Of a stretch of DNA of 64,000 nt, positions 18,094 through 57,500 are shown piece after piece. The translations under genes were made by a program, and so were the position numbers. Under the pieces are notes generated by a model that saw only the letters and a program-made list of their open reading frames with translations, was not told the origin of the DNA and made no database searches. The DNA is from Lepidostoma basale (Eukaryota; Arthropoda; Insecta; Trichoptera; Lepidostomatidae): contig JAHDVF020000892.1 of the NCBI GenBank assembly GCA_022606425.2, positions 927,106 to 991,105 of the forward strand, written 5' to 3'. The first letter of the stretch is position 1. Each line of letters opens with the position of its first letter.

Positions 18094-18135
18094 CGCGACA
18101 GCTGTTTCATCAACCTATGTTGACATCATCAAGTG
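18094..18135 (-). ncRNA. Hammerhead-like motif, family E left arm
   Basis: Minus strand: stem I strand TAACAC, core TTGATGA (18126-18132, C3 replaced by U), extra U, stem II GTCAAC/GTTGAT with loop ATAG, GAAA (18105-18108), palindromic helix III ACAGCTGT, C17 at 18097, then GCGTTA, which pairs with TAACAC except one A-C mismatch. Near-consensus; the C3 change should impair cleavage. Confidence 0.6.
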
Positions 18136-18142
18136 TTACATC

Positions 18143-18184
18143 ATGACTGATGATTTCAACATAGGTTGATGAACCACTGTCGCG
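18143..18184 (+). ncRNA. Broken hammerhead motif, family E right arm
   Basis: Consensus CTGATGA (18147-18153) and stem II TTTCAAC/GTTGAT, but GAAAC has become GAACC and helix III CACTGT. Predicted inactive, the mirror partner of 18094-18135. Confidence 0.6.
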
Positions 18185-18299
18185 TAAAATAAAATACAAT
18201 TGTGATACAAAAACAAAGTTATTTAATTTAACAGTTTAAAATATTAGTTTTGTATATAATCATGTTGAACACCCCTGAACAATATATAGATAAATCAGT

Positions 18300-18360
18300 T
18301 AATAACAGTGTCACCAGTCTGTTGATGCCAGCAAACCTAGCGAAACCGGTCACTCACATT
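18300..18360 (+). repeat. Family C hammerhead-like remnant
   Basis: CACCAGTCTGTTGATGCCAG, then CAAACCTAGCGAAACCGGTC. The core reads CTGTTGA: A6 is U, as in other family C copies. No tail retained. Confidence 0.6.
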
Positions 18361-18529
18361 CTATTTAATTATTATTTAAATTAAAACGAAACACAGAAAA
18401 TGTAAGCATGCTTGAATGAAATGACATCGAATATTTTATAATTTATAATAGAATATTGTTGCTTACATAGATATAAGAAGAAAACATATTCGATTTAAAA
18501 TTATATATATCACACATTAAGAGAGCAGT

Positions 18530-18840
18530 AAGCCAGGTACCACCTCCCGCCCAATTAAGAAATATAGCCCCCCGGACCGGGCGGAGGCAGAAGTTACCTC
18601 GGGATCTCATCGATCACCTTATTAACTTAGCAACAATCGGAGAGGTAATCCGTAAATAACGTCGTTAGTGCGGTTTTTATCAGTGGAAGCTAATGGCTCA
18701 CATCTCTCCTAATAGGAGCTCCCGCCATCTGTCCGCGGCGCGGGGAGGGAGCGGCGCGGGGTGGGTAGCGCCGCCGAGAAGCGGGAAAAGCCCTTTAGAT
18801 CGCGCGAAAGAGCGGGAAACCGAAGCTCTCACAAGTAAAG
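18530..18840. other. GC-rich unique island
   Basis: About 310 bp of high-GC, CpG-rich sequence including GGAGGGAGCGGCGCGGGGTG. No repeat copy and no coding motif; candidate conserved regulatory DNA. Confidence 0.45.
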
Positions 18841-19225
18841 AGCATTACCGTTTATAATGCAAATATTGTTTTCTTTAATAAATTTATTTCTTTAGTATTT
18901 GAGAGCGCACAATGTGCATCAACGTCGATTAAACATGTATAAGTAAGGATAACGGATGCATTTTTAACAAAAAATTTAAATTTTGTTTTAATACGCAAGG
19001 ATCATTATAATGGATAGAACACGTGAAAGAATGTTTATTGTTTATTGAACAATAATGTATTAACAAATGTATGAACAACGTTAATTCATATTTTTATATA
19101 ATAAATATTTTTCCCTAATGATCATGACTCACCGTTCTAACATTCCAATCGTCCTCGCGCACACTTTCTCCTACCCCTCTTTCTTCCATCCATTTTTTCA
19201 TATGTTGTTTTCTGATTTTATGTTT
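18841..19225. other. AT-rich, nothing recognised
   Basis: No feature supported. Confidence 0.4.
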
Positions 19226-19228
19226 AGT

Positions 19229-19325
19229 TTATTCTCTCACCCTGACGAAGCTCCGGCGGAAGCGAAACCGGTTGGTGTTACCAAATAAAGTGGTTAAGAT
19301 ACAAATACGAGTACTAAAAGTTTAT
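19229..19325 (+). repeat. Family B ribozyme element, single arm
   Basis: TAGTTTATTCTCTCACC, ribozyme, then TGTTACCAAATAAAGTGG and TACAAATACGAGTACTAAAA. The same tail occurs in both arms of 53196-53384. Confidence 0.75.
19238..19277 (+). ncRNA. Hammerhead ribozyme candidate, family B
   Basis: Stem I CACC (19238-19241) pairs with GGTG (19274-19277). Core CTGACGA at 19242-19248, one extra A, stem II GCTCC...GGAAGC, GAAA at 19264-19267, helix III ACCGGT (self-complementary, 19267-19272), U17 at 19273, so the predicted cut is after 19273. All invariant residues C3-A9, G12-A14 and U16.1 are present. The extra A before stem II occurs in several of these families. Confidence 0.75.
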
Positions 19326-19329
19326 TTTT

Positions 19330-19900
19330 GATTATTTATTTAATGATTTCAATAAGAAATTAATTTGTAAATAGAATAAAAATCTACACCCCAAAACGCG
19401 AAGGAATTTTTAAAATAACTAAAAAAGCATCTAAAAGAGATTAGGAATACAACATTTTTAGAATTCGAAACACATTATCTATAGATCACTTGAACCACCA
19501 TTTTGTTCAAACTCGAATTTCAAACAAATTATTAATCCATCCTGACTTTATCCGTCGGAGTCGACTCCCTGACAAATATCCCTCTCCCTCCGTCTCAATG
19601 GCGCAGATAAGGACAGAGATAAATGTGTTTCCATCCATTCCTCGCTTCCTCGTTCACTTACCATATTCTCTTCCCGATAAGCCGGCTACAGATGTAGTAC
19701 CTCCGCCGCTTCTGATCGCGCCCATTACTCTTAAAATTTCAGCATAATAGTGCGCCCTAATACGCTAATAACTTCCCCCTCTCCCAACACGTACCTACAC
19801 TACTTAGTATATATATATATATTTATGGATTATTTCTTTATATTTATACGTTGTCTAATTCGTATCATATTTTGCTTAACATTTAATAACATTCTCCTTA
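19330..19900. other. Unannotated, mixed composition
   Basis: The 85-codon plus-strand frame at 19490 has no recognisable motif; 19540-19760 is GC-richer and single-copy. Confidence 0.4.
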
Positions 19901-19904
19901 CATA

Positions 19905-20150
19905 ATCAAATGATTTTACTGAAATCTCTTGATGGAAGTTCATTTTAAATAATAATTAAATAAAACGAAAATTTTTAACTACTTCCACTTTTGTCTTTAT
20001 TTCGACAGCGACCGGTTTCGCCAGGCTCGCTGGCATTCACCAGTCTGTCGATGCCAGCGAGCCTGGCGAAACCGTTCGCTGTCTAAATAAAGACAAAAGT
20101 GGAAGTAGTTAAAAAATATCGTTTTATATAATTATTATTTTCCTTACATG
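19905..20150. repeat. Family C inverted pair
   Basis: Arms of about 100 bp: AACTACTTCCACTTTTGTCT ... complement, closing on a short axis near 20040. Each arm has a hammerhead-like motif: the minus one around 20007-20045 (TGGTGAA then GCCAGCGAGCCTGGC, GAAACCGGTC), the plus one around 20044-20080 (CTGTCGA, same hairpin, GAAACCGTTC). A6 of the core is lost in both. Left end carries the inverted family C 3' end (TTTTACTGAAATCTCTTGAT). Confidence 0.8.
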
Positions 20151-20764
20151 TTGTAAATAATGGATTGACTAACCGAATTTTCTAAAATAAAGGTAACATA
20201 AAATTGATCTTATAATTAAAATTGCATTAGATTGCCGAAGTCTGTTTTCAAATAAACCCCAATACATTGTTTCAAATTGATAAATCTAATACAACTAATG
20301 TTTTAATTTTACGTATTCTTTAAGCTTCAAAAAAAATCTCAAAAAATATTATTCCATTTTTTGCCAGTATAATTTTATTTTATTTTAATAAATATAATGT
20401 GACCCAATATTTTTCGAAATACGACGTACAAACAAAAAAGGGGTGGAATTATGTATAAAGGTGGAGGGGTACAATTAGGATTGAGTAGGTGGAACGGATA
20501 ACGGGAACATTTCGAACATGGGTATTAAATTTCAATTTTTTTGGCTGTTTATTTTATTTTCATTATTGTTGGTGGCTTTTTATAATTTATAAATTATTAA
20601 ATGTTAGATTTTTATCAATTATATACAAAATTTCGATACCGTTTTCTCTGTTAAACGTTTAATTATTTTCAATTAAACGATTAACGAAAGTCGTCTAATA
20701 TGTATGTTCTTTCATTCTTTTGTTAAAATTACGCGTTGTGAAATAACGTGAATTCGTTTAACTT

Positions 20765-21120
20765 AATTTGCAAGATGATTTTACTAAAATCTCGTGATGG
20801 AAGTTCATTTCTAATAATAATTAAATAAAACAATGTTTTTTAACTACTTCCACTTTTGCCTTTATTTTGACAGCTTCGAAATAAAGACAAAAATGGAAGT
20901 AGTTAAAAAAAACATCGTTTTATTTAATTATTATTATAATTGGTAAATAATAATTAAATAAAACGATATTTTTTAACTACTTTCACTTTTGGCTTTATGT
21001 TGACCAGCTTCGAAATAAAGACAAAAGTGGAAGTAGTTAAAAAAAACATCGTTTTATTTAATTAGTATTTAAAATGAACTTCCATCAAGAGATTTCAGTA
21101 AAATCATTTGATTATCTTTT
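20765..21120. repeat. Two nested family C palindromes without ribozyme cores
   Basis: Two successive foldbacks (about 20815-20930 and 20945-21070), each formed only by the TTTAACTACTTCCACTTTTG tail arms meeting at CAGCTTCGAAATAAAGAC. The hairpin and GAAAC box are missing. Flanked on both sides by family C 3' ends in opposite orientation (TTTTACTAAAATCTC and GAGATTTCAGTAAAATC). Confidence 0.8.
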
Positions 21121-21369
21121 AATTTGTAGACTCCCGACTGAATAAATTTATTAATGATTTATTATTGTTTAGTATGTTTTTTGTTTGCAGACGATGGTGA
21201 GTTAGTTTTTTTTAACTGAATGGTTAGTGTTTTTTTTACAGATATGCATAAAACATTATTTAACATGGCAACATCTGAAGTAGCGTTTTTTATAATGTAG
21301 ATTTGAAAACTTGTTGTTGAACAATTTTTGTATATTGTATACTGTACAACTATAATATTCAAAATCTAT

Positions 21370-21690
21370 TGGCCCCAAACAGTGTCAAATGCCGTTCTCT
21401 GGACCATGGCAGGCGAAAAGCCAATTAGAGAACAAGTCGCTAGGCGAAAATGGCAGTGGATCGGTCACACTCTGAGACAGAACCCAGCCTGCATCGCTCA
21501 GGGCGCACTAGACTGGTCCCGTATGGGGGGAAAGAGAAAGCGAGGCAGACCTAGAACCACCTGGAGAAGAACCCTGCAGGACGAGGTTAAGGCAGCAGGC
21601 CTCACTTGGGATGATGTTAAGCATCAGGCACGCGATAGAGTCGGGTGGAGAAGATTCCTTGAGGCCCTATGCACCACGGAGGTGTGACAG
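21370..21690 (+). pseudogene. LINE RT C-terminal fragment (GHTLRQ type)
   Basis: Open frame encoding PIREQVARRKWQWIGHTLRQ, then GGKRKRGRPRTTWRRTLQDE and VGWRRFLEALC with a stop. This is the C-terminal tail of an RTE/CR1-type element family that ends RRKWxWIGHTLR...KRGRPRxTWRR. Unusually intact reading frame over about 100 codons, suggesting a younger insertion. No endonuclease or RT core. Confidence 0.8.
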
Positions 21691-21694
21691 GACA

Positions 21695-22540
21695 AAAAGA
21701 AGAATAAGAGACAACTATATTATAATATTAGTTATTTTTTTAAAAACAGTAATGTTAAAGTACTTTAATTATTTGCCGAACGTAAATAATACCTCGAGAA
21801 TTTAGTTAAGGAGTTGAAGGCAGATGTAGGCAGTAACATTCAACTAATAAAGCGCAAGCTAAGCTACAATTAATGTTACGAAACTGAATTCTAGACCATA
21901 TACCAACTCATGTGTACACATGTACCTACCCCTATATACCGTAAAGAGATTAGGTAGTCTGGGGTACGTTTAACTTCACGGGGAGGCTGAAAGGCTTTTA
22001 CGGGTTTATTTACACACAAAACAGTACATGCTAAGGGTAGCCACCCCTTCAGTACACCTGAGAATACAGCTAATAATATCGCGCAGTCACTCTAGGGGTA
22101 GGTTGAGATTTCTTATTACAACTACCTTCCTTGTTCTGGTTTGGAATAGAATTTTAAATGATTAAATAATTAAAATGATTTGGGATTGAAGTTAGAAAAA
22201 AACTCGCCATGGGTCTGGGAAAGGGACATCCATATGATAAGTAATTATTGAAATATAAATATACCAACTATGGTGGGTTAGGTTAATCATAAAATATATT
22301 ACTTTATTCAGGTCAAACATAATGAATAGACTTAGGAAAATCTCGTGACATCGTTGAATCGGTGAATAAAAAAATGTCTTAGCTCCGATACACGAAGGAG
22401 CAGACCTTCACCATATCTTCAAAACTAATGTAGTTTAAACAACATAAGACAATGCGTGTCGTGAAAAGAAGAAAAAAAATTACATCAAAAAGCATTTTCA
22501 TCATTAAACAAGCAAAAGCTTGATCTAATAATAAATACGA
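21695..22540. other. Unannotated stretch
   Basis: Mixed composition; no repeats shared in the window and no coding motif. Confidence 0.4.
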
Positions 22541-22544
22541 ACGA

Positions 22545-22735
22545 AAACATCTGTCTTCTAAAAGTTTTATTATATTTTTTGGGATTTTGATATTTCGCCT
22601 AGCTGGGATCAAAGACTTCTAAAAAAGGCCTTAGGATATAATAAAACTTCTAGGAAACAGACGTCTTCATTGGGTTTATATATTTAACATGGAGTTTTAC
22701 GTCATTGTTCATGAAACAATAAATTAAAGATTTAT
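22545..22735. repeat. Family A inverted pair, degraded
   Basis: CTGTCTTCTAAAAGTTTTAT and TATAATAAAACTTCTAGGAA face each other around TTTCGCCTAGC. Ends with the 3' module ACATGGAGTTTTACGTCATT and GTTCATGAAACAATAAA. Confidence 0.65.
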
Positions 22736-23129
22736 TTTTAAATAATAGTTTTAACGTAAAAATTTTATATCAAATGTTTAAATAGAATTTGTTAGTATAA
22801 TAACAGTTATATGACAACTAATTTACCTCACTTGCAATTGAAGTTAGAATAAAAGGATTTTGGTTTTTTGCGTGTTTGTTAAAAAACACACACTCATGTG
22901 TAACATCAATTTAAATTTTTTTAATGATTAGTATCGAATAATTTTATGAACCTAAAACCCGAATTCTGCATTGCGGTGTTAGCGGTTAATCAACGTGAAC
23001 TTTATCAACTGAATGTGATTAAATATCACTCGCGAACGGGAACTACTGCATGTTTGAGAGCACCATGTATACACTTGTATATCACTGACTCTGCCGCTAC
23101 TGATGCTGGTAAAGACTATAACATAATCC

Positions 23130-23222
23130 AGTGACGTGGGACGCCCCTCGCACCCCGCACCCCGCGCCCCGGCGGGGGTGCACCCGGCCGCCCCGCTGCA
23201 GAGGGCGCCACTGCAGTCTCTA
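23130..23222. other. GC-rich island
   Basis: Very GC-rich (CCCCGCGCCCCGGCGGGGGT and surroundings), single-copy here. Confidence 0.45.
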
Positions 23223-23526
23223 CATATTTTATTTTAAGCTCGACTCGCTACCGTTCACTATGCAAAGCGAAACATTATGAAAAATACATTATAAAACGCT
23301 TCCCTTAATAAATATTTTAAACGTACTTTGTTACGTACTTTGCAATGCTAACAGTGGACTTATAAATTATTCAAAATTTTCAATTTCAACATGTTCTCGT
23401 TACTACATATATTCGAAAACAACGCTAAACGAAATTATTGGTATTAATTAAATTTTCGTACGAAGCATTCACTTTGTGGTAAAAGATAATTTTTATTTTA
23501 TTTTTATATTTAAAATTAAAATACTG

Positions 23527-23665
23527 CACTTTTTTTTCACCACTATGCGGTTATTTTAATTGCCGACTAGTTTCGCTTGTACCCAAGCTTCCTCAGGGCT
23601 TCGTAATAACGTTTATTACGAACCGCATAGTGGTGAAAAACAAAGTGCGTGTTTTTATTTCTATT
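23527..23665. repeat. Family I ribozyme element, asymmetric inverted pair
   Basis: Arms TTCACCACTATGCGGTT / AACCGCATAGTGGTGAA face each other. Only the left arm keeps a ribozyme; the right arm goes straight from the axis (TAATAACGTTTATTA) into the outer arm. Confidence 0.75.
23562..23600 (-). ncRNA. Hammerhead ribozyme candidate, family I
   Basis: Minus strand: stem I GCC pairs with GGC (23562-23564); core CTGAGGA (23590-23596), extra A, stem II GCTTG/CAAGC with loop GGTA (five perfect pairs), GAAA (23571-23574), palindromic helix III ACTAGT (23566-23571), C17 at 23565. All catalytic-core residues are consensus; predicted cut between 23565 and 23564. With 19238-19277 one of the two best-supported ribozymes in the window. 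Confidence 0.78.
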
Positions 23666-23699
23666 TTATTTTAAATATAAATACTTAAAAGTTTGGTAT

Positions 23700-25310: not shown

Positions 25311-25332
25311 TGTATAGAAAATATATCGAATA

Positions 25333-28154: not shown

Positions 28155-28320
28155 AATTGTCCATTGTTTTGGCCGAAACACAATGATACTTTAACATTTT
28201 GTAACTGTTAATGAAAAAACTTGTAACACCTGATGATCTCAACATTGGTTGATGAAACAGTTGTCGTAAAATAAAATACAATTGTGATACAAAAACAAAG
28301 TTTTTTCATTAACAGTTATA
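28155..28320 (+). repeat. Family E ribozyme element
   Basis: Outer end CCATTGTTTTGGCCGAAACA, then TTAACA..GTAACTGTTAATG and one plus-strand ribozyme with its AAAATAAAATACAATTGTGA tail and AACAGTTA end. Left arm lacks a ribozyme. Confidence 0.75.
28224..28268 (+). ncRNA. Hammerhead ribozyme candidate, family E
   Basis: Core CTGATGA at 28230-28236, stem II TCAAC/GTTGA with loop ATTG, GAAA at 28254-28257, helix III ACAGTTGT (self-pairing with G-U), C17 at 28265, predicted cut after it. Core fully consensus. Stem I is weak here (CA/TG only) because the GCGTTA strand seen at 18094 is shortened to GTAAAA, so activity is uncertain. Confidence 0.65.
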
Positions 28321-32500: not shown

Positions 32501-32571
32501 GATAGCTATACCCTTTACATAGATTTGGCTTGCGCTGTAATGATGTAAAGAGCGATTCAACAAAATAATTC

Positions 32572-32735
32572 ATTAATACGAATGAAAACGTCAGTTTTCT
32601 AGAAGTTTTATTATATTTTATGTATTCAAATGTTTAAAATATAATAAAACTTCTAGAAAACTGACGTTTTCATTCGTATTAATTATGTAATATGGAGTTT
32701 TACATCATTGTTCAAGAAACAACAAATAAAATAAT
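32572..32735. repeat. Family A near-perfect palindrome without ribozyme
   Basis: Arms of about 48 bp: 32572-32620 (ATTAATACGAATGAAAACGT ...) and 32637-32683, its near-exact complement, with a 16-bp spacer. The core and hairpin are gone. Followed by the 3' module ATATGGAGTTTTACATCATT and GTTCAAGAAACAACAAA. High arm identity suggests a young or gene-converted copy. Confidence 0.85.
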
Positions 32736-33016: not shown

Positions 33017-33340
33017 AGTAGAAAAAGAAGAATGTGAGTTTTACTACATTAATAGTTCATCTAATTATATGTTGGTTGTTGTATTTTAAATTTCGTTTCC
33101 TCTATTTTCATATACCTGACGATCGGAAAGAAACAACGATAATAAATAACGCATTTAAAGATAGCATAAAAGGGGATAGTCTACCAGCCATAAGTTGAAC
33201 AAAAATTAACAAGTGTTTTGTTTCCTAGATCAAATAAGATTCAAGACAGTTTGACGGGGGAACTTATTAAAAGAGTAATTAATTTAAAATGTTATCCTAC
33301 GGCGCTGGTTCTGACACAGTCCGCGGCACCCACTCGTGTA

Positions 33341-33371
33341 CGAGGTCTGTTCAAAAAGTATCGCGAATTTT
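33341..33371 (+). repeat. mariner terminal inverted repeat, transposase 3' side
   Basis: 31 bp beginning CGAGGTCTGT directly after the TA at 33339-33340; identical to the complement of 34630-34660. Confidence 0.95.
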
Positions 33372-33394: not shown

Positions 33395-34454
33395 TTATTC
33401 ATGAATATCTATTTTGTCCCCTTCAAAATAATTCCCCTCGGATATAATACATTTATGCCAACGTTTTTTCCAATCCTCGAAGCACTTAAAAAAATCATTT
33501 TTTGTGATCTTGTTCAGCTCCTCCTTCGATGCCGTCTTTATCTCCTCAATCGTGGCGTAGCGTCGTCCTTTCATGGGCCTCTTCAGTTTTGGAAACAGGA
33601 AAAAGTCACAGGGGCCAGGTCTGGGGAATACGGTGGCTGCGGCACCATTACTGTGTTGTTTTTGGCCAAATATTCGCGCACAAGTAACGATGTGTGAGCA
33701 GGGGCGTTATCATGGTGCAAAAGCCAGTTTTTGTTCTTCCACAAATCCGGGCGTTTCTGGCGGATTGCTTCGCGCAAATTGCGCATAACTTGCAGGTAAT
33801 ATTCCTTATTGACCGTACTACCCTGTGGCAAGAACTCATGATGCACCACGCCCCTGCAATCGAAGAAAACTGTGGGCAAAACCTTCACGTTCGACCGAAC
33901 TTGGCGCGCTTTTTTGGTCTTGGCTCATGCGGCAGCTTCCATTGGGATGATTGAGCTTTGGTTTCCACGTCATAACCATAAACCCATGATTCTTCACTAG
34001 TTATGACCCTCTGGAGCACATTTGGGTCGTCACGGACCGAGTCCAACATCTCCTGAGCAATGTTAACTCGATGCTGTTTTTGGTCGAAATTGAGCAATTT
34101 TGGCACGAATTTCGCGGCGACCCGACTCATGCCCAAATCATTGGTTAAAATCGAATGGCACGAGCCAATCGATATGTTTAGGTCCTCAGCAACTTCTCTA
34201 ACGGTGATTCGACGATTGGCTAATACTATTTTCTTCACTTTATCAATGTTTTCGTCTGTTGTTGACGTGCTCGGGCGTCCGGCACGCTCTTCGTCGTTCA
34301 TATCTTCTCGGCCCTCTGAGAACATTTTGTACCACCGATAAACGTTGCTTTGGTCCAAGGTAGCTTCACCATATGCCACAGTCAACATTCGAAATGCGTC
34401 CGCGCACTTTATTTTGTTTTTCACACAAAATTTGATACAGATTCTTTGATCCAT
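33395..34454 (-). pseudogene. mariner transposase pseudogene (D34D type)
   Basis: Start chosen at 34454 (MDQRICIKFC), because the 15 codons upstream are not mariner-like; about 353 codons if frame is ignored. Residues 1-110 form the two helix-turn-helix DNA-binding region (SNVYRWYKMFSEGRED, RRITVREVAEDLNISIGSCH); WKLPHEP is the linker motif. Catalysis would need three Asp. The first, usually in TGDExW, is here Glu164 (ITSEESW). The second is in HHDNAPAH. The third lies 35 residues on, just past a frameshift. Two single-base losses break the frame: in the T run at 33910-33915 and the G run at 33612-33615. The reading continues to a stop at 33395. Confidence 0.93.
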
Positions 34455-34629
34455 TTTTTGGAATAGGCAAAAATCGAAGACGAGCCAAAACACATCCAAG
34501 CAAAACAGCTGTCAAAAATTAACTAAACATTCAAAATGGCCGACCTTGTCAGCATAAGTAAGGGACATGAGTACCAACATAACGCTACAAAAAAATCAAA
34601 AATCAAATATACGTAGCCAGCGGAAATTC

Positions 34630-34660
34630 AAAATTCGCGATACTTTTTGAACAGACCTCG
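34630..34660 (-). repeat. mariner terminal inverted repeat, transposase 5' side
   Basis: 31 bp ending ACAGACCTCG directly before the TA at 34661-34662. Confidence 0.95.
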
Positions 34661-34734
34661 TACGCTGAACGGCATCATACACAATGTTCGTACTCCCAGT
34701 CTGATGACAGGTAAATTTCATAACTTGCTTATTG

Positions 34735-36769: not shown

Positions 36770-36840
36770 TGTTTTAAACGATCCAACCGGTTTCGCTCTC
36801 GCTGTAGCTTCGTTAGGGTTACAGAAAAAAAAGTAAATAA
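36770..36840 (-). repeat. Family B-like hammerhead remnant
   Basis: Minus strand: CTAACGA (36810-36816, G5 changed), AGCTACAGCGAGAGC, GAAACCGGTTGG. Helix III ACCGGT retained. The core mutation should abolish cleavage. Confidence 0.6.
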
Positions 36841-36924: not shown

Positions 36925-37190
36925 AATATTCCATTGTTTTGGCCGAAACACTATGATACTTCAACATCATAACTGTTAAAATTTATAGCACTGTTATAAT
37001 ATCACAATTTACTTTTATTCACTGAGAGTGTCGCGACAGCTGTTTCGCCAACCGATGTTGGCAAACTTAGAATTTATTGTAATACCTGATGATGCCAATA
37101 TCGGTTAGCGAAACAGCTGTCGCGACACTCTCAGTGGATAAAAATAAATTGTAATATTATAACAGTGTTATAAATTTTAACAGTTTAATT
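36925..37190. repeat. Family E inverted pair
   Basis: Outer end CCATTGTTTTGGCCGAAACA; arms CACAATTTACTTTTATTCAC / complement; two opposed hairpins. The left-arm motif (minus, around 37031-37075) keeps stem II GCCAAC/GTTGGC and GAAACAGCTGTCGCG but its core is CTAAGTT. The right arm is consensus. Confidence 0.8.
37080..37124 (+). ncRNA. Hammerhead ribozyme candidate, family E
   Basis: Core CTGATGA (37086-37092), extra U, hairpin GCCAATATCGGTTAGC with one internal mismatch, GAAA (37110-37113), palindromic helix III ACAGCTGT (37113-37120), C17 at 37121. All core residues consensus. Stem I here is poor, so activity is uncertain. Confidence 0.65.
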
Positions 37191-37194: not shown

Positions 37195-37300
37195 TTTTTT
37201 ATTTATATAATATCACTGATGAAGGGCTTGTGTGTCCGAAACATGTTTGGTTTTTAATTTGTATTTTTTTTAATAAAATGTGTGTTGTATACAGTCTTAG
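37195..37300 (+). repeat. Family D' ribozyme element
   Basis: Ribozyme followed by GTTTTTAATTTGTATTTTTT and AAAATGTGTGTTGTATACAG. Immediately downstream of a family E element. The GTTGTATAC end is like the family D tails at 46480 and 58790. Confidence 0.65.
37213..37250 (+). ncRNA. Hammerhead ribozyme candidate, family D'
   Basis: Core CTGATGA (37216-37222), extra A, stem II GGGC/GTCC with loop TTGTGT, GAAA (37238-37241), helix III ACATGT (37241-37246), U17 at 37247. Core consensus. Helix I is short or absent. Confidence 0.65.
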
Positions 37301-39719: not shown

Positions 39720-39895
39720 ATAATTTATTATAATTTAAACACAAATATGTTTCAGGACACTGAAGCCCTTCATCAGCGTAAATTTTGACTAAATCATTAT
39801 ATGTATACGAAATACATATTTTTTATCACAAATATGATCAGTTTTGACAATGTTCAAATGCATTTTTGGAACGTTTTATGGGTTGTTACAAACTT
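39720..39895 (-). repeat. Family D' element with body
   Basis: Ribozyme motif at its left and AAATATGATCAGTTTTGACA / TTTTTGGAACGTTTTATG body shared with 12545-12650. Confidence 0.6.
39745..39780 (-). ncRNA. Hammerhead candidate, family D', helix III degraded
   Basis: Minus strand: core CTGATGA (39770-39776), stem II AGGGC/GTCCT with loop TTCAGT, five pairs including A-U directly at the core, GAAA (39750-39753), then ACATAT where ACATGT is expected. Core intact, but the T replacing G weakens helix III. Confidence 0.55.
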
Positions 39896-40496
39896 TTTAA
39901 TCAAATCTAAAATAATATTTTCACGAAACATGTTTGTATAATATTTAAATTACAATATGGTGTTATTTAATAATTCAACTATGAATTCACAACAAAAAAT
40001 GATGGTGAATATATAGAAAAAAAATCGTTAATCATTTGAATATATCAAATATTTTAATAAAACGAATAAATAGGCATGGCAATGCGTATACGAGTACATT
40101 GTTTTTCAGGTTCATGATAATATCAAGATAGTTTCGTGAGGATTCCTCAAGCATTGTACATCTCTCCTATTCTATTGTCATTGTGGTGAAAGGTTTAGCC
40201 GACTGTTTTGGTTATATCAACACCACACATGGAGGCACTCTACTTGACGTATACATGGAATCAATAGTCAATATTATAATACAAATATTTATCTACATTC
40301 AAGGAAAAAAGTGTAGCAAGGGGTCTCAAAGATTCCGTTATGGATGTGCAGCGATATAAGGGAAGGAGAGATGAAAATATGAAGTAAGTGGATATAGAAA
40401 AGTCAGGCGTGCAGTCAAAACGTGAAGATAAGATAATATATACTTAGGAAATTGAAAAACTTTGTTAATCCACTATTAAATAAGAAATATTAAAAA

Positions 40497-40541
40497 ACAC
40501 GACATATTTCGGAGGATACCTCCATCTGCAGGTGTAAAAAT
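40497..40541 (-). ncRNA. Hammerhead-like motif, family H left arm
   Basis: Minus strand: stem I ACAC/GTGT, CTGCAGA (40525-40531, A6 changed to C), stem II GGAGG/CCTCC with loop TAT, GAAATATGTC. Helix III changed as well. Probably inactive. Confidence 0.6.
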
Positions 40542-40786
40542 ATATAATATATGTAAAAATAAACAGTTTTTTTTATATTACAACGTTTTTTATATATTTT
40601 TTATTATCGTCATGTAGTATTATTATTTAATATTATTTAATAGTTCTTACTGTTAAAAAATAATTGTTAGTACCTAGTTAGTACTTATAACAAATAGGAC
40701 AGGTTAATTTTTAAATTTGAATTATTGTATCGAATTTTAAATGCGTTTTTTAAAAGTCTTTCTTTGTTAAGTTTTTATTATATTTT

Positions 40787-40827
40787 TACACCTAGAGATG
40801 GAGGTATCCTCCGAAACATGTCGTGTT
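40787..40827 (+). ncRNA. Hammerhead-like motif, family H right arm
   Basis: Stem I ACAC pairs with GTGT after the cut; core CTAGAGA (40792-40798) in place of CTGAAGA; stem II GGAGG/CCTCC perfect; GAAA (40813-40816); helix III ACATGT; C17 at 40822. Only the core box is scrambled. Confidence 0.6.
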
Positions 40828-40929
40828 TTTAAATATTTTTTTATTAAATAGTGGATTAAACAAAGTTTTTCAATTTTAAGTATATACTATGGAATTCCAC
40901 AGCACAATGCCTTAGCGTTCAATAAGTTG

Positions 40930-46225: not shown

Positions 46226-46297
46226 TATTTCTATTGACATTTTTTATATACTTTGTATATACTCGTACAACACTTATATTTAAAATAAAAAAATTAT

Positions 46298-46335
46298 GTA
46301 GACATGTTTCGGACAAACAGTTCTTCTTCAATAAA
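46298..46335 (-). ncRNA. Hammerhead-like motif, family D left arm
   Basis: Minus strand: TTGAAGA (46325-46331, C3 changed), hairpin GAAC/GTCC with loop TGTTT, GAAACATGTC with intact helix III ACATGT. One core change. Confidence 0.6.
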
Positions 46336-46413
46336 GATACATACAAATCTTTATAGCATCTGTCAGATCATGTAAACAACAACAATTATATAATATTTTT
46401 ATAAATACGTATC

Positions 46414-46450
46414 TTTACTGAAGAAGGACTGTTTGTCCGAAACATGGCTA
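46414..46450 (+). ncRNA. Hammerhead-like motif, family D right arm
   Basis: Core CTGAAGA (46418-46424), extra A, stem II GGAC/GTCC with loop TGTTT (perfect), GAAA (46439-46442), then ACATGGC: U16.1 is G. The defects of the two arms are complementary: one lost C3, the other U16.1. Confidence 0.65.
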
Positions 46451-46924
46451 TGTAATTAATTTTTTTGAATATAAGTGTTGTGTATACAAAGTGTATAAAA
46501 AAGTAAAATAAAATTTTATATTTGGTTTTGATGCATTTTTTTTTCGTATACATGTTTTACTATACTTTATAGATGTGACATATTTCTGAAACTGAAACGT
46601 TCAATGTATATTGAATTGCGTACTTCCAGCACTGACATGTGGTGCGTAAACGCTTACCTTCACTAAGTTGACCAGAAGGAAACTTCGTGGATACACGAAA
46701 GAGCCATGCTACATGTAAGACTCTCATACCAAATAAGAAATACTAATATACGTAGAAGGTCGGGAGTAACGGATGGCATCGAAAGGGTCTCCTTTTACTT
46801 CTAATATCTTCGCAAGGTCTACATGCCACCACCTTGGTCTACCAGTCTGGCGACATATCACACAATTTATCATTTGAGCTTAGCAACCCTTTCGAAGATA
46901 TTCATATTCATTTTACTTTATTTA

Positions 46925-48159: not shown

Positions 48160-48376
48160 TTTTTTTATGAATTAAAACTCTGTTTTTTCCACTTTTGAGA
48201 TTATTTTTCTCGACATGTTTCGAAGGTTTACATCTTCATCATCGAGAGAACGATATAAACTAGTGGTGGTAAAGGTGTAAGCCTTAGAAACGTGTCGAGA
48301 AAAATAAACTCAAAAGTGGAAAAAACAATGTTTTAATTCATAAAAATTCGGCATTATGGAATTACACAGCCTTAAA
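48160..48376. repeat. Family F inverted pair
   Basis: Arms TGTTTTTTCCACTTTTGAG / CTCAAAAGTGGAAAAAACA. Left motif (minus): ATGATGA (48236-48242), hairpin, CGAAACATGTCGAG. Right: GTGGTAA..., GAAACGTGTCGAG. Ends with GGAATTACACAGCCTTAAAT. The canonical core is absent from both arms. Confidence 0.75.
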
Positions 48377-48519
48377 TTTATCTGAAATTACAATTTTTTT
48401 GTTTTAATTTTATACTTATTCTATTATTTAACAAGTTGATTGTTGACTCCAGTCTGCATTCTATGCGGCAGCAAGACAGATAAGGATTTTCCGAAGAGAT
48501 GTTATAAAACACAGCATCT

Positions 48520-49650: not shown

Positions 49651-50260
49651 TTTCTAAATGTAACATTTACGTAACTGTATATTTTTCTCTCATGCTACTT
49701 TAGTAAACAAAAAAAGAGTTAATTAAAATCTCTGTTTTTTTTTAAATAATGAATAATTGAACGAAAATGTGTTGTATTAATGATCGGGCTTATAAGCGCG
49801 AGAGGGTGGATATTAAACAGAAGAAGGTTGGCATTAAAACAAGTTTATGATTTAAAACTGTTCGAACGAACATTCAGGAGTGGAGATTTAAATTCGTAAA
49901 TGAAGGATCGTTCTTATTATATTAAGTAACTAAATAATTATCGCATAGAATCATAAATGATTTTATGAGACTGTTTCAAGGTTGTCTTAATCTAAATTGT
50001 ATTCGTTATCCAGGTGACTAGAAAATATAAAAAATAAAAATCAAAAATGAACACATATAATGTTTACAAGATATTCATAATTAAATATAAAGCAAAACTT
50101 ATGATAATATCTCTTTAGATCCTAGAAATCTATAGATATTACAGAAATGTTACTATTTAATCATATAATATGATATTAAAATAACATCAAACCAGCACAA
50201 GAAATTTTATGTATTGTAGGAAAATCTTGAAGTTACTACTGTACTAAGTATTTTATATTT
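49651..50260. other. AT-rich, nothing recognised
   Basis: No feature supported. Confidence 0.4.
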
Positions 50261-50265
50261 CAAAT

Positions 50266-50490
50266 CGTTAATACGAATGAAAACATCTGTTTTCTAGAAG
50301 TTTTATTGTATTTTACGTGAAAAGCATGTTTCGCCTGTCTAATTATGATCAAATTTTCAATTAAAATCACTTGATAAAGCCTTAGACAGGCGAAACATTT
50401 CATTCACATAAAATAAAATAAAACTTCTAGAAAACAGACGCTTTCATTCGTATTGATTATTTTATATTGAGTTTTGAAATAATAAATATT
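50266..50490. repeat. Family A inverted pair
   Basis: CGTTAATACGAATGAAAACA, TTTCTAGAAGTTTTATTGTA, GCATGTTTCGCCTGTCTAAT / TTGATAAAGCCTTAGACAGG, CGAAACATTTCATTCACATA, CTTCTAGAAAACAGACGCTT. The hairpin change GTCT/AGAC is matched in both arms. Ends with a degraded 3' module. Confidence 0.8.
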
Positions 50491-51937: not shown

Positions 51938-51995
51938 TTTTTAAAAATTAAATAAAACGGTGCTTTTCAAAAACTACTTCCACTTTTGTCTTCTT
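51938..51995 (-). repeat. Family C tail fragment
   Basis: AAATTAAATAAAACGGTGCT then AAAAACTACTTCCACTTTTG. No core or hairpin remains. Confidence 0.6.
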
Positions 51996-52069
51996 ATGGC
52001 ATCGAAGGACTGATCTGACGTGGCAGGCCCAAGTTGACGTGGATGCACTCATTCAAATACTTTCAATTC

Positions 52070-52375: not shown

Positions 52376-52379
52376 CACT

Positions 52380-52840
52380 ATATGGAACGCGGACGTTTGA
52401 AATAGAAAAAATATTTTGACTTTTCACAAAGGAAAACTCGCTAGCATGGAATCATACATTCACATCATTTTACCGGCTCGGCATAAAATTTTATTACGTT
52501 AAACTATTGCAAAAAATTGCATTTTGCTGACTGCATTTCAAATAGAATCCCATGTGAAAGGAAAATGCACACGATTCCAAAATATTTATTTTCAAGTATC
52601 GAAAACTTTGATATTAGCATTCACTTTATGGTGGAATATTTTTACCTTGGTACATATTTATTCAACTTCAACCAACGCCACCTATTCCGAATAGAAATAT
52701 GTATAAACCTTGTACGTAAATTTATTCACGGCATATAAACAAGCGATGCAAATTTTGGCAATAACGATTTATCGAATGTATGACTTTAACAATAATAACG
52801 TATTAGTTTATATCTAAATTAACCTTATTGTAAATTAACT
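52380..52840. other. Unannotated stretch
   Basis: 73-codon plus-strand frame at 52517 has no motif. No repeat recognised. Confidence 0.4.
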
Positions 52841-52844
52841 TACG

Positions 52845-52968
52845 AGCACGCCTTCTCCCGAAAGGGTAGTACAGAAATAATGGACTGCCACAATTTTCTT
52901 TCCTGACATCGTTTTCTCATACATCGTGTCATGCACGCACGTCATTTTCGTCATCGCTTTCTAATGTC
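52845..52968 (-). repeat. N1 LINE 3' end fragment
   Basis: CGCCTTCTCCCGAAAGGGTA, CATCGTGTCATGCACGCACG. Abuts a SINE1. Confidence 0.6.
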
Positions 52969-52971
52969 TTT

Positions 52972-53118
52972 GTTCTGGTGTAGAATACAGGTGACGTTTT
53001 ATTGTCACGTGAATTCTACACCAGTATAAGAATCACACTGTCATTACCTGGAAGCGAACCCGGGACCTTGGGTGTTGCAGTTATACCTGTTGCTGTGTTC
53101 TGTCACGAAGGTTGTGTT
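52972..53118 (-). repeat. SINE1 copy, truncated
   Basis: Contains TTATTGTCACGTGAATTCTA, CACTGTCATTACCTGGAAGC and GAACCCGGGACCTTGGGTGT; box B matches GGGTTCGCTTCC. Confidence 0.75.
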
Positions 53119-53222
53119 AATTTTAATCTTTCGTATAAAGCACTTTATTTGTGGTGTGACAGTATTAAATAAAATAATAATACACTTGTAGTAATTTGTA
53201 TTAATACCACTTTATTTGGTAA

Positions 53223-53262
53223 CACCAACCGGTTTCGCTCGCGACGAAGCTTCGTCAGGGTG
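53223..53262 (-). ncRNA. Hammerhead ribozyme candidate, family B left arm
   Basis: Minus strand: stem I CACC (53259-53262) pairs with GGTG (53223-53226); core CTGACGA (53252-53258); extra A; stem II GCTT/GAGC closing a CGTCGC loop; GAAA (53233-53236); helix III ACCGGT; U17 at 53227. All core residues consensus. Best-preserved family B copy together with 19238-19277. Confidence 0.77.
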
Positions 53263-53311
53263 AGAGAATAAACAAAATATCACGTATTTAGTCATATTTA
53301 GTTTATTCTCT

Positions 53312-53351
53312 CACCCTGACGAAGCTCCGGCGGGAGCGAAACCGGTTAGTG
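53312..53351 (+). ncRNA. Hammerhead ribozyme candidate, family B right arm
   Basis: Core CTGACGA (53316-53322), extra A, stem II GCTCC/GGAGC with loop GGCG (five perfect pairs), GAAA (53338-53341), helix III ACCGGT, U17 at 53347. The first base pair of stem I is lost (AGTG in place of GGTG). Confidence 0.7.
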
Positions 53352-53559
53352 TTACCAAATAAAGTGGTGTTAATACAAATCACTAAATGTGTATTATTAT
53401 TTTATTATATATAATTTGTGTTTATTTTTTATGATATTATTGATTGATATGATTCTTAAAAAAGTTTTATAATAATAATAATTTTGTCTTAAATAACCGA
53501 TGCACATAATATTCGTGGTGCTCACAAGATAACTGAATCTTTAACATTAAAAGCAGGGG

Positions 53560-53765
53560 CAATCCGTTAAGCGGTCCTTATATTTGTGGATAGCGTGGGC
53601 ATACTAAGAGCCTCACCCGTGATACAATATTCCTCTTCATTTACATTCAAATGTTCTCCGGTGCAAGCGGCCGGCGAACGGCGCTTTCAGGGGGCACGCG
53701 AGTGGTCCGAGTAGCTCGGCGGCCGAGACTTTCAAAGGAAACATTTAAGAGACCCCGTAAAAGGC
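53560..53765. other. Unique GC-rich island
   Basis: GGCGAACGGCGCTTTCAGGG and CTCGGCGGCCGAG. Single-copy; no coding signal. Confidence 0.4.
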
Positions 53766-53954
53766 AAAAGATTTTAACGTAACCATTCACTAAAGGTTAA
53801 AAACCATTTTACGAAAACCTTTTTGGCTTTATGTTGTTGCATGATGAAAACAAAAGCATTTTATTAATTCATGAACCGACTATATAAAATAATGCGTCGA
53901 CATCGACTATATAATTTTAATATTTTTTCCTGTTATGATGACTGTGCTGATACA

Positions 53955-53994
53955 TCGGGGAGACGGCGTGATGGTTAGTTAGTTAGTTAGTTCA
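53955..53994 (+). repeat. N1 LINE extreme 3' end (TTAG tail)
   Basis: GGGGAGACGGCGTGATGG followed by five TTAG-type units; nothing else of the element remains. Confidence 0.75.
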
Positions 53995-54009
53995 TTATTA
54001 AATATAATA

Positions 54010-54125
54010 TCAGTATGCTTTTAATTTTTTTTTTCACCACCTTATTTTTTTTAGTGTCTTTTGTAACCCTGACGAGGCAGGAGCGTTACCGGTTGGTTGT
54101 TGAAAATAATGGAAGTGATTAAATA
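54010..54125 (+). repeat. Family B-like hammerhead remnant
   Basis: TAACCCTGACGAGGCAGGAG, GCGTTACCGGTTGGTTGTTG. CTGACGA is intact, but GAAA is GTTA and the hairpin is deleted. ACCGGT retained. Closest to 36770-36840. Confidence 0.6.
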
Positions 54126-54284
54126 ACAAATGAAAATTAATTTATATTTAATTAATATATTTTAAACGAACTAATATTGAAAAAATCAAGCGATAAGGGT
54201 GAGATAACCTTTTGTTAAGAGCTGACGCCAATGAATTTTATCAATGATATTCAATGTTTTATAACATTTCTTAATTTAATAATA

Positions 54285-54345
54285 ATAATAAAATGTTTTT
54301 ATGAAAAAGGAACCCGGTCATGTCCGGAATTGAGTATACAGGTTA
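54285..54345 (-). repeat. SINE2 fragment
   Basis: TTTATGAAAAAGGAACCCGG and TCATGTCCGGAATTGAGTAT match the SINE2 end in the minus orientation. Confidence 0.4.
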
Positions 54346-54483
54346 TAGATAAAAAGTCAGTCAATATTACCCTATCTATAAAGCTAGGTTTATAGATATC
54401 TATTATATCCTATCATATAGGTTTAATTTATACATATTTATTTGTCTTTTCAAAAAATAAGCCAATTCTTTACAGATGTATAT

Positions 54484-54498
54484 TAGGGTGTCCCTTAT
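54484..54498 (+). repeat. Terminal inverted repeat, left
   Basis: TAGGGTGTCCCTTAT, preceded by the probable 8-bp duplication ATGTATAT. Confidence 0.85.
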
Positions 54499-54759
54499 TT
54501 TTCAAAGTTTTAATTTTACAACGCATAGGCTATTGTTTTATTCATTTGGGCCTAAAACATTCGAAAACAATTTTTTTCCTTATTCAGAACAGTGTAACCC
54601 GTGCCGACTTACGCGCAAAGATGTCCCATACAAATTGCGTCACAGGAGCGGCGCGTTGTCGTTGCTATTATCATTTAGTCTCGGCTTGTCATGTAATATC
54701 ACGGATTTTTTTATATTTCGAAGATGTCAGTGGAACTAAGAAGCAATTAAAAAAGTTTT

Positions 54760-56155
54760 TTCTTGGTTAATGAAGTAAATCACCAAATATCAGGTGTAAA
54801 CAACCATCTAATCGTCAAGTTCTCGCAGTTCTATTTTTCAACATACGTGAAGTTAATTCAACTGTTAATGAAAGCGCAAATCTTGTCATTCTGGAGTGCA
54901 ATATATTATGAAAAAAGGCTAGAATACCTACCAGAGCTGTTCCTAATTATGTTAAGAAGTTAGTGGATCTTTATCAGGTCTGACGAGAACTGCAAAAAAT
55001 AGCAAGAAGATTCAGGACTTACATAGGCGCCGCGAAGAGAACTTTCAACTTGAATTAGATCATTTATTTGATATCGCACACGCCGATGCTCTTGAATGTG
55101 CTGTGATACGACAGCATCTTATACAGAATGCTTAAACGGAGCTTGTGTGTAAAAACTAGAAAGAGATTTGTTACTCTTTGCTTGCCGCCATCATATATAC
55201 GAACTGATGCTCAAAAGTGCGTCTGAATCGCAAAATCGACTGTACGAGATGATTATAGCGAACTCATTGAGCTTGCTATTGTTTTTCTGGGTGAACGCAA
55301 TGAAAATAAAATAAAAATCAGACCTGCTGGCCCAACGCATCAAGCACGATGGATGCCAAGAGCTATTTACTCCTTAAAAATACGTTTACTGCAGTCCCAG
55401 TTTAAAATGTGCGCTAAGGACAAATAAGCTTAACGAGATGTTTGTTTATTTATTGTGGCAGTTTATGTGTAGCCCTGGCTTGAATGTAGTTTGGCGATAA
55501 AAGCTCCGAATCAAGATTTTTGTTTTTTAAGGACCTTATAAGATTACGAAGAAGTTGACAATTTCCAAAGCGGCTTTAAACAAGTTCAGTCAACATTTAT
55601 GGTACTTGTCAGAGGAAATAGCCGTACTTTTAATTTTTAATGATAACGTTGATGAGCAGACTAATGAAAACATTGTAGAAAACTTACAAAAAGAAAGTTT
55701 TGGTGATTCGGGAAAGAGATATGTTCCATCGAAGGAACAGATGTCTGGCTCTCTATATGGTACGTAAGTAGTGTTTAATCTGGTATTTAATTTAGAACTT
55801 ATTTGTTTTATTTATAGGTACTACAAGTATTTGTTACCTTGTTTTATGGAAATCTTTGAGTGATTTTGTTTCTGTAAAAAGTAAAGATTTATTTTCATTA
55901 CTGAAACTTGATAGTAATTTCCTTCGAGAAATTGTATCTTCATAGAATGACAGCGCGGCCTTTGTGGAAGCTAAAAAGAAGGTTACTAGCTTAAAAATAG
56001 TAAATGACAGAGCTGAAAGAGCTGTTAATCTAATGACAGACTTTCATGGTTCGATTACCGCAGATGTAGAACATAAGTAGTTCACATTATGTTGTGTGCA
56101 AGAACATAGAAAAATTTACCCAGACTGTAAAAAAAAGAGACTTCGAAGAGGAAAT
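54760..56155 (+). pseudogene. Transposase-like pseudogene of the 8-bp-TSD element
   Basis: Fragmented plus-strand reading: NSKKIQDLHRRREENFQLEL and FDIAHADALE (about 55000-55100); GPTHQARWMPRAIYSLKI (about 55330-55385); AIKAPNQDFCFL (about 55490-55530); KAALNKFSQHLWYLSEEIAV with a 70-codon open frame (55555-55767); then KIVNDRAERAVNLMTDFHG (about 55990-56045) and a Cys/Lys-rich end. The sequence order resembles a multi-copy insect protein family with HLWYLSEE and VNDxAERGV motifs that I recall but cannot name. A possible intron (GTACGTAAGT ... TTTATAG) lies at about 55757-55817. Stops in every section. Confidence 0.65.
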
Positions 56156-56445
56156 ATCCAAGTAAATAAATATAAATTTGGATCTTTTCTGATAATTACA
56201 AGAAAAGTATTACATAAATATACGTATTCATCAATATTTATCTAACATAATGGTTTTAAGTGTTCATCTACAACTTCATTTAAGAGACACCTAAAGCAGG
56301 TATTTTCTAATACTTTGAGGCCAAGTCGGCACGGGTTAGAATTATCGTAGGAAGTTGAAATTCTGTATTTGGGTAACTAGTAGGCTATTAAACACAATTA
56401 GGGGGTATGCGTTTCAATAATCCAAAAAAAAATTTTTTTGCCCAT

Positions 56446-56460
56446 ATAAGGGACACCCTA
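56446..56460 (-). repeat. Terminal inverted repeat, right
   Basis: ATAAGGGACACCCTA followed by ATGTGTAT, the second copy of the probable target duplication. Confidence 0.85.
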
Positions 56461-56559
56461 ATGTGTATACATAATAATAAAATATTTATGAAGCTCATTT
56501 TAATAACAGACTGCATTTAAACGTAAATATCTGCAGAGCGAACAATTAGTTAGAACCCT

Positions 56560-56870
56560 TGATATCAACGGTCCATCTCATCCGCAGATCTCAAGTTGGA
56601 AACTAGCTCAAACTTCGCTCCTTAATTAGGGACAAGAAGTAGTGTCATAGCCTTGCCCGCGTCCGGTGCTGGACGGGGGAGCGCGGAGCGAACACTTTTG
56701 GGCGCCGCGCCGTGTCCGGGGCGTCGGTCCGTTAGGCGCCCATTGTACGAGTGGGACGCCCGAAACTTTGGAGCGGTATTCAATCGCGACCTAAACACTA
56801 AACAGGACACGTGTCGCTGTCAACCACAGAGCACGTGGTTCTCATATAATATGAGCGCCACTCTATGCAT
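56560..56870. other. Unique GC-rich island
   Basis: CpG-rich at 56655-56740 (GGCGCCGCGCCGTGTCCGGG). Opposed frames of 62 and 80 codons, no motif. Probable conserved or regulatory DNA, unproven. Confidence 0.4.
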
Positions 56871-57141
56871 CATTAATACTCCAGCTAAAGTTTAAAAAAA
56901 GCATTTATTTTATCTGCGCAACGATGTGAAACTCCTTAGAAAAAATAAATTAAAATGAGTTACGAGTATCAAAGATTTAATTTCGTTTTCATGGCGATAA
57001 GCCTAACTGGGATATTATCAAATAATGAAGTGATGACATAACACGAGTATCAAAAAAATCTAAAAAAAAAAAATTAACAATATAATTTCAATGGATCTTG
57101 TACGATTCAAATAATTAACAAAAGAAATATTAACTTACATA

Positions 57142-57262
57142 ATTAATACGAATGAAAACATTCCCGTCAAATATAAAAAAATATGTAAAAAAACAGACGC
57201 TTTCATTTTTATTGATAATTTATTAGAGAGATTTACATCATTGTTCGAGAAACAATAAATTA
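57142..57262. repeat. Family A remnant
   Basis: AATTAATACGAATGAAAACA, AAACAGACGCTTTCATTTTT, GAGATTTACATCATTGTTCG. Internal part replaced by short AT sequence. Confidence 0.65.
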
Positions 57263-57307
57263 AATTTCCACATGACGTAATCATTAGCGATAAAACTATA
57301 AAAATGT

Positions 57308-57500
57308 TACTTAGGAAATTGAAAATAACTTTGTTTAATCCACTAAATATTAAAAAATATTAAAAAACACGACAGGTTTCGAAGGATACCTCCATCTTCA
57401 GGTAAATTCAGGTTTATATTACTATGGAATTATATTACTATGGAAGTATATTACTATGGAATTCCACAGTGTTAATGCCTTAGCGTTCTATAAAAATGTT
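57308..57500 (-). repeat. Family H ribozyme element
   Basis: CTTAGGAAATTGAAAATAAC, TTTAATCCACTAAAT, ribozyme, then three units of TATATTACTATGGA and the module ATTCCACAGTGTTAATGCCT, TAGCGTTC. The trailing module is in the orientation of the right arm at 40900, so it is the remnant of a lost second arm. Confidence 0.75.
57366..57405 (-). ncRNA. Hammerhead ribozyme candidate, family H
   Basis: Minus strand: core CTGAAGA (57395-57401), extra U, stem II GGAGG/CCTTC with loop TAT (one G-U), GAAA (57377-57380), helix III AC/GT around CT, C17 at 57371; stem I TAC/GTG (one wobble). All core residues consensus; the only family H copy with an intact core. Confidence 0.72.

Follow-up and report, generated by a model that had tools for sequence, protein, structure and literature searches.

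Minimal type I hammerheads with a tiny helix III reportedly occur in the pseudo-long terminal repeats (pLTRs) of Penelope-like elements (PLEs) and are said to cleave as dimers, according to Cervera and de la Pena in 2014 and Lunse, Weinberg and Breaker in 2017. Hammerheads in PLEs have been published, as have inverted pLTRs, tails and internal starts. For PAc, the Poseidon element of Anolis, PMC11167929 describes cutting and extension of both strands, an internal start, a tail and a ribozyme that needed its protein. Penelope copies of the rotifer Adineta vaga are described in PMC3846280 with target duplications of 8-10 bp. The stretch considered here, called the window throughout, comprises 64,000 nt of the trichopteran Lepidostoma basale (assembly GCA_022606425.2, contig JAHDVF020000892.1, positions 927,106 to 991,105 of the forward strand), and the genome searches that accompany it covered the 769-Mb assembly. 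The window holds hammerhead motifs of eight families, designated A, B, C, D, E, F, F2 and G.

Most copies in the window are head-to-head inverted pairs, and those of families A, B and D, whose PLE-type tail runs into the start of an open reading frame (ORF), are best regarded as PLE products made of the leader alone. More generally, we consider it probable, at about 0.7, that dimer-type hammerheads lie in the leaders (pLTRs) of about eight PLE families, that pairs of leaders are inserted by two-sided priming followed by end joining, and that the templates of family D are partly RNAs cleaved by their own ribozyme.

The strict motif CTGANGA-N14-17-GAAAC occurs ten times in the window, against a mean of 0.125 and a maximum of 2 in 200 dinucleotide shuffles. 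The preliminary description, which was made from the letters of the stretch alone, had listed ten such sites and put the chance expectation at about 0.1 in 64 kb. All ten exist, the estimate was a good one, and the motif density of shuffled sequence, which it had proposed as a check, falls far below that of the window. Its plus-strand sites were found where it placed them, while its minus-strand positions were 6 nt off the first base of CTGANGA, which lies at 23596, 39776, 53258 and 57401. It had also counted at least eight element families. This is right for the window as a whole, but by our grouping the ten sites represent only six (B, C, E, F, F2 and G), and the total of eight is reached by adding A (48207-48249) and D (20005-20082), which were outside its list, as were several partner arms. 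Its view that the locus is unusually diverse did not hold, since flanks elsewhere are similarly loaded and, within this genome, the window is nothing unusual. In 236.6 kb of sequence flanking 91 loci, a biased sample chosen near PLE or hammerhead matches, there are 23 strict motifs, or 6.2 per 64 kb, and leaving aside window-derived loci, overlapping loci and two bacterial loci gives 23 in 218.4 kb, or 6.7 per 64 kb. One locus (L057) that duplicates another (L042) is kept in the 236.6-kb density and in the outer-end classes below, and is left out of the 218.4-kb density, of the comparison with the D reference and of the tail and duplication counts.

A first descriptor, with helix II placed directly after CTGANGA, gave a stem of at least 3 in only one of the ten sites and a full hammerhead in none, because one extra nucleotide sits between CTGANGA and helix II. 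This extra A or T is present in all ten family representatives; site 39776 is an exception. The representatives, which were picked as well-kept copies, pair in 34.5 of 40 helix I positions and 37.5 of 40 helix II positions, compared with 16.7 and 20.3 after shuffling of the partners, and no partner shuffle across families equalled the observed pairing of either helix in 5000 trials each. Helices I and II thus covary strongly. The predicted cleavage triplet is GUC in D and E and GUU in B. Helix III is self-complementary in all ten (ACCGGT, ACTAGT, ACATGT or ACAGCTGT), position 17 is C or T, and helix I has 2.5 to 4 of its 4 pairs when G-U is counted as half. The type I core CUGANGA...GAAA and the three helices are kept in the representatives of B, C, E, E2, F, F2, G and H, with 2.5 of 4 pairs in helix I of H. 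One core base deviates in D (U6) and in the consensus of A (C4, which reads CCGATGA).

In a column test on 12 copies, 93.3% of cells were paired, against 63.0% in shuffles, and the covariation score was 0.79 against 0.21. The covariance model R1 has as its basis 12 copies, none of them from the window, which represent seven families at other loci (A, B, D, E2, F, F2 and G). It has 28 matches in the window at E<=1 and 20 at E<0.01; the latter recover nine of the ten earlier sites, site 28230 having E=0.093. Rfam models gave no match at gathering score in the window, and between 17000 and 64000 they reported no hammerhead even at E values as high as 10. The covariance search that the preliminary description had called for is thus negative with the Rfam hammerhead and positive with a custom model. 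Several Rfam microRNA matches in the window were rejected as palindromes seen as hairpins. Genome-wide, Rfam Hammerhead_1 has one match among the 73 candidates scored of 94533 first-look candidates. This match, at about 1500-1860 of locus L001, belongs to another hammerhead-like family with helix III ACACGTGT, present as an inverted pair about 300 nt apart. Judged by sequence, the motifs are real hammerhead-type ribozyme sequences, and the architecture with a tiny helix III that was first proposed for them is borne out.

Many of the window sites lie in mirror repeats that are 75-91% self-complementary, with a partial one at 23513-23660, and the hammerheads in these repeats face outward. When the genome was searched with the mirror repeats of A and B, first-look candidates numbered 5034 and 3137, of which the best 40 of each were scored. 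All 40 scored for each query match on both strands, although the queries are themselves palindromic and so favour palindromes. Nearly every insertion has a junction of its own: the 59 distinct loci compared, 30 from family A and 29 from family B, yield 58 different strings, seven rows having a weakly placed anchor. The arms are cut back independently, and some junctions contain filler or, by eye at L045 and L058, an apparent templated insertion. Junction lengths of family A cluster, with 55 nt in 14 of the 50 listed.

The outer ends of the A and B insertions fall into two main classes, short ends at about 82-93 (A) or 96-107 (B) of the arm consensus and long ends reaching to 131 or 142, with some in between. 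Exactly one long end is present in 51 of the 59 insertions, two in six and none in two. The long extension, of about 40 nt, reads by our interpretation as the start of an ORF, covering the first 13-16 codons or so (MEFHSVNALSLSK in A, MSHHKLSASYESLK in B and MNFHQEISVKSFDY in D). Target-site duplications flank 18 of the 59 A and B insertions (mean 2.0, maximum 7 in 300 shuffles) and eight of 12 D insertions (1.1, maximum 4 in 200 shuffles). The marks of PLEs, namely pLTRs, inverted copies, a tail at one end and target duplications, are all found in A, B and D, while C, E, F, F2 and G show inverted pairing only, and that in part. The queries may have selected short palindromes, so that the sharpness of the 5' ends at the A and B loci is possibly a bias of the search. 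Against this, the single B copy at 19220-19363 matches the B unit from the same 5' end as the paired copies, and the A junction lengths cluster as given above.

Family D can be connected with an autonomous element. Locus L092 has an open frame of 758 codons, apparently 5'-truncated, with RVT_1 at 302-478 and GIY-YIG at 651-734; the frame is flanked by minus and plus hammerheads, and in the leader of the element a TATATAAAG box lies 36 nt upstream of the hammerhead core. The predicted cleavage site of the family lies 66 nt before the ATG. Minus-then-plus order of hammerheads is found in 11 of 18 D loci, representing nine distinct insertions, and six others have one hammerhead in the stretch. 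Since PLE copies with a reverse transcriptase (RT) and GIY-YIG end in hammerheads of the same kind, the link to Penelope-like retroelements drawn in the preliminary description is upheld. The other families are assigned to PLEs on the basis of their hammerhead and pairing, to which A and B add tails and ends. GIY-YIG has 62 matches in the genome at E<=0.001, and on five contigs they form minus-plus pairs. Of the three best matches, two look like bacterial UvrC genes; L062 (contig C102) and L064 (contig C729) have what appears to be bacterial uvrC beside bacterial neighbours and would be symbionts or contaminants.

The ends of the D arms bear on ribozyme cleavage. Head-to-head junctions were defined as at most 30 nt between exact anchors that start 8 nt past the predicted cleavage site. 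There are 157 such junctions, against none in the reversed control, and 383 in which both arms start before the hammerhead core, again with at most 30 nt between anchors. Fifty of the 157 were listed, in contig order, with letters for 32, of which 30 were used, the two dropped being second members of neighbouring identical pairs. In these 30, 22 of the 60 arm ends coincide with the nucleotide that directly follows the predicted cleavage site (+1) and none is at +2 or +3. Collapsing exact repeats and reverse complements by hand leaves 23 distinct junctions, or 21 when two palindrome point variants are also removed, and in these 21 the +1 position holds 11 of 42 ends, the next positions 5. Both arms begin at +1 in five of the 21, against 1.3 expected if the arms were independent (p about 1e-4). 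Within one subfamily, consisting of 11 TCTAAA junctions picked by eye, the figure is five of 11 against 2.6 (p about 0.007). The length expected for two +1 arms sharing a GC dinucleotide occurs in 13 of the 50 listed junctions, letters having been read for some only; in one of those read (C91) this length arises for another reason. The window itself has a +1 end at 20874, in a locally duplicated junction. Among the copies compared one by one, which are too few and mixed to show the peak, one D arm is at +1, and D ends other than those of long copies range from -44 to -9 and from -2 to +13. The +1 peak suggests that ribozyme-cleaved RNAs were templates of reverse transcription in vivo in family D, although its core has U6.

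Several observations weigh against the overall reading or its D component. The main difficulty is that U6 in the core of D should impair catalysis, while family B, whose core is consensus, has no peak. Either core change, U6 in D or C4 in A, is expected to weaken catalysis, and CTGTCGA (U6) is found in 32 of 39 pattern-matched D copies, overlapping loci being kept. One A6 form of the D core has 20 exact copies genome-wide. Diverged D members (18319 in the window, and L061) read CTGTTGA, and the U6 variant looks ancestral to the D clade. In the junctions of family B there is no clear peak, with 2 of 18 arm ends at +1 and 3 of 18 at 0 (nine junctions), and family C likewise has none, 2 of 19 junctions having the +1/+1 GC-overlap length. 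The next commonest D ends are at +5 (7 of 60) and +6 (6 of 60), and the exactly palindromic junction of D could stem from the amplification of a single element instead of repeated events. When three leaders were folded alone the full hammerhead was the best fold in none, and shuffled sequences folded as well in 181 of 200 cases for site 19242, 49 for D and 20 for E. Lastly, an RT gene is assigned for D only, and none for A, B, C, E, F, F2 and G, for which no separate search was made.

The same comparison of junctions before the core and past the cleavage site gives 212 and 5 in family A, and 37 and 9 in family B. Since the anchors used for A, B, C and D were exact and their lengths of 15, 12 or 14 nt differed between searches, and younger families match more, these ratios are rough. 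None of the five A junctions past the cleavage site has the +1/+1 length.

It is conceivable, although we would not favour it, that the +1 peak of D reflects junction microhomology, an RT stop or the amplification of one insertion. The commonest D junction does overlap by the self-complementary GC, the variant core and the missing peaks in A, B and C fit such an origin, and frequent ends at +5 and +6 would be expected if reverse transcription halted where helix I begins. However, a helix I stop is expected at +5 and not at +1. The +1 ends recur with differing fillers (AG, T and a 10-nt filler), and the longer self-complementary ACCGGT just upstream, which would give a gap of 24, is absent among the 50 listed junctions.

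In the A, B and D pairs both outer ends are 3' ends of the element; one of them lies ahead of the ORF start or close to it, and its counterpart is tailed. The preferred reading, two-sided priming and end joining of leader copies, would account for them as follows. Transcription would start from the leader, the PLE protein would cut both strands of the target, and on each side of the cut reverse transcription would begin at an internal position of the RNA, close to the ORF start. Each cDNA would then extend to the 5' end of its RNA, and since the RNA would start next to the hammerhead, only the leader of about 100-150 nt would be copied. The two cDNAs would finally be joined head to head by end joining. 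In family D, where a second class of 5' ends lies at the predicted ribozyme cut, cleaved RNAs are probably templates too. The frequent presence of two cleaved RNAs in one D insertion would be expected if the RNAs pair through their self-complementary helix III. Since the PAc ribozyme needs its protein, protein-assisted cleavage by a variant core may, by analogy, be possible in D. A tentative extension, which we regard as less probable than its negation, is that the dimer hammerhead and the head-to-head insertion reflect a single complex, in which two PLE RNAs are paired through helix III and bound by a PLE protein dimer. Each RNA would cleave the other at +1, and both would be reverse transcribed into the two sides of one target break; the genome would then be a fossil record of ribozyme cleavage, the U6 variant included.

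Self-priming, in which one strand snaps back upon itself, would also give head-to-head pairs. It has been proposed for rotifer PLEs (PMC3846280), and it agrees with the near-perfect palindromes and with several junctions that have little or no spacer. A snap-back does not readily explain arms that are trimmed independently, or the filler and apparent templated insertions at the junction. Nor does it explain why exactly one outer end is tailed in 51 of 59 insertions and why duplications flank the pair. In the in vitro work of PMC11167929, cutting and extension by a PLE protein took place on both strands. For these reasons self-priming appears unlikely.

Small non-autonomous tandem elements that spread via circular RNA, the animal retrozymes, also have type I hammerheads, short units and high copy number, and at one locus outside the window, L081, three D hammerheads share the plus orientation (872, 2160 and 2843; 872-2884). 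Two of the three are diverged, with a similarity of about 80-83% to the D reference. These are either separate insertions or an old tandem PLE. Retrozymes are described in PMC7761336 and PMC7229834 as direct tandem repeats of about 150-300 or 170-400 nt, whereas the pairs here are inverted and their tails run into the ORF start. A tandem finder detected no direct hammerhead array in the window, its sole tandem being the local duplication of a junction without hammerhead. A retrozyme origin is therefore very improbable, and the term non-autonomous ribozyme retroelements, applied to these copies at the outset, does not suit them in the retrozyme sense: they are mostly inverted pairs, and those of A, B and D have a PLE-type tail. 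That they are hairpin-forming DNA transposons (miniature inverted-repeat transposable elements) containing the motif by chance is scarcely credible, for in spite of the long inverted repeats and thousands of first-look candidates, the junctions are variable, the tails asymmetric and the duplication lengths varying, and D is continuous with elements that carry RT and GIY-YIG.

The D insertion of the window, at 19902..20140, has hammerheads at 20005-20047 (minus) and 20041-20082 (plus), a tail at about 19902-19943, a mirror repeat at 19947-20140 and the near-exact duplication ATTCTCCTTACAT/ATTTTCCTTACAT at its two sides. A second D head-to-head junction, lacking the ribozyme half, occupies 20775..21115 (mirror repeat 20775-21107), with one left arm starting at +1 (20874), and is tandem-duplicated locally at 20813-21069 with a period of 134. 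An older hammerhead of the D clade (core CTGTTGA) lies at 18315..18356 on the plus strand and matches both R1 (E=1.2e-6) and the D reference. The A insertion at 48162..48387 consists of a minus arm at 48162-48260, with hammerhead 48207-48249, and a decayed plus arm at 48272-48387, the mirror repeat extending over 48162-48346; its left end is untailed, its right end is tailed and TTACAATT is repeated at the two sides. An A-like head-to-head insertion at 58432..58661 has its tail at 58432-58472 and its mirror repeat at 58474-58661. The head-to-head B insertion at 53121..53406 has hammerheads at 53222-53262 (minus) and 53312-53352 (plus), a tail on the left and a mirror repeat at 53168-53406. The single B leader insertion at 19220..19363 (plus) has its hammerhead at 19238-19278 and no listed inverted partner, and a decayed B-like hammerhead (CTAACGA) is found at 36780..36820 on the minus strand (R1 E=0.00011).

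Family C has head-to-head insertions at 18035..18241, with hammerhead 18092-18136 (minus; helix III ACAGCTGT, GUC; 88% self-complementary; R1 E=0.0031), and at 36971..37185, with hammerhead 37082-37126 (plus; R1 E=0.0015), as well as a single hammerhead at 28226..28267 (plus), which is weak in the model (R1 E=0.093). The partly inverted copy of family E at 23513..23660 has a consensus-core hammerhead at 23560-23600 (minus; helix III ACTAGT, GUC). Family F is represented by a single hammerhead at 37212..37252 (plus), the best R1 match of the window (E=7e-13), and by one with decayed helix III at 39739..39780 (minus; R1 E=0.0016), and an F-like hammerhead lies at 58722..58761 (plus; R1 E=0.00033). 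The head-to-head insertion of F2 at 46240..46502 has hammerheads at 46296-46335 (minus) and 46414-46453 (plus), while that of G at 40433..40890 has them at 40496-40535 (minus) and 40788-40827 (plus); both are mirror repeats and are matched by R1. A single G hammerhead is at 57366..57405 (minus; R1 E=3.8e-10). For sites 19242, 28230, 36816, 37216, 39776 and 57401 no separate mirror partner is listed. Two further long inverted repeats, 50257-50467 and 32561-32694, have no visible hammerhead and are perhaps other leader pairs or unrelated elements. A broken Mos1-type mariner transposase lies at 33395-34511 (minus), with 34-nt perfect inverted repeats at 33338-33371 and 34630-34663.

If the ends of insertions record the cleavage site, assembled genomes would reveal ribozyme activity for each family separately. 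No report of insert ends at a hammerhead cleavage site was recognised in the literature searched, which scarcely covered subscription papers and the core papers on hammerhead PLEs. The data also bear on the origin of inverted PLE copies, favouring two-sided priming and end joining over self-priming, and they suggest a simple reason for the length of pLTRs, the distance from the 5' end of the RNA to the internal start of reverse transcription.

The families described here share with the minimal-hammerhead PLEs the tiny helix III, the type I architecture and the PLE context. They differ in their leader-only head-to-head insertions, in the presence of eight families in one window, in the insert ends of one family at the predicted cleavage site and in its U6 core. 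Animal retrozymes also have type I hammerheads in short repeats, but as described in PMC7229834 they are directly repeated in tandem and their hammerheads are mostly canonical type I, while those found here are inverted pairs with a tiny helix III. The Penelope families of Adineta vaga resemble them in having inverted pLTRs, one of which is tailed, with the head-to-head arrangement the most frequent, according to PMC3846280, a paper in which the words ribozyme and hammerhead are absent. The same paper proposes self-priming on antisense RNA, whereas the junction fillers here favour end joining. PAc, as portrayed in PMC11167929, has an RT start near the ORF start, a tail between two RT start sites and a hammerhead in the leader, as the present families do. 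It is arranged in tandem, however, and its hammerhead overlaps the ORF start, while the cleavage site of D is 66 nt before the ATG. In that account there are no reads at the PAc cleavage site and uncleaved RNA is the main template in vitro, whereas insert ends of family D are found at the predicted cleavage site.

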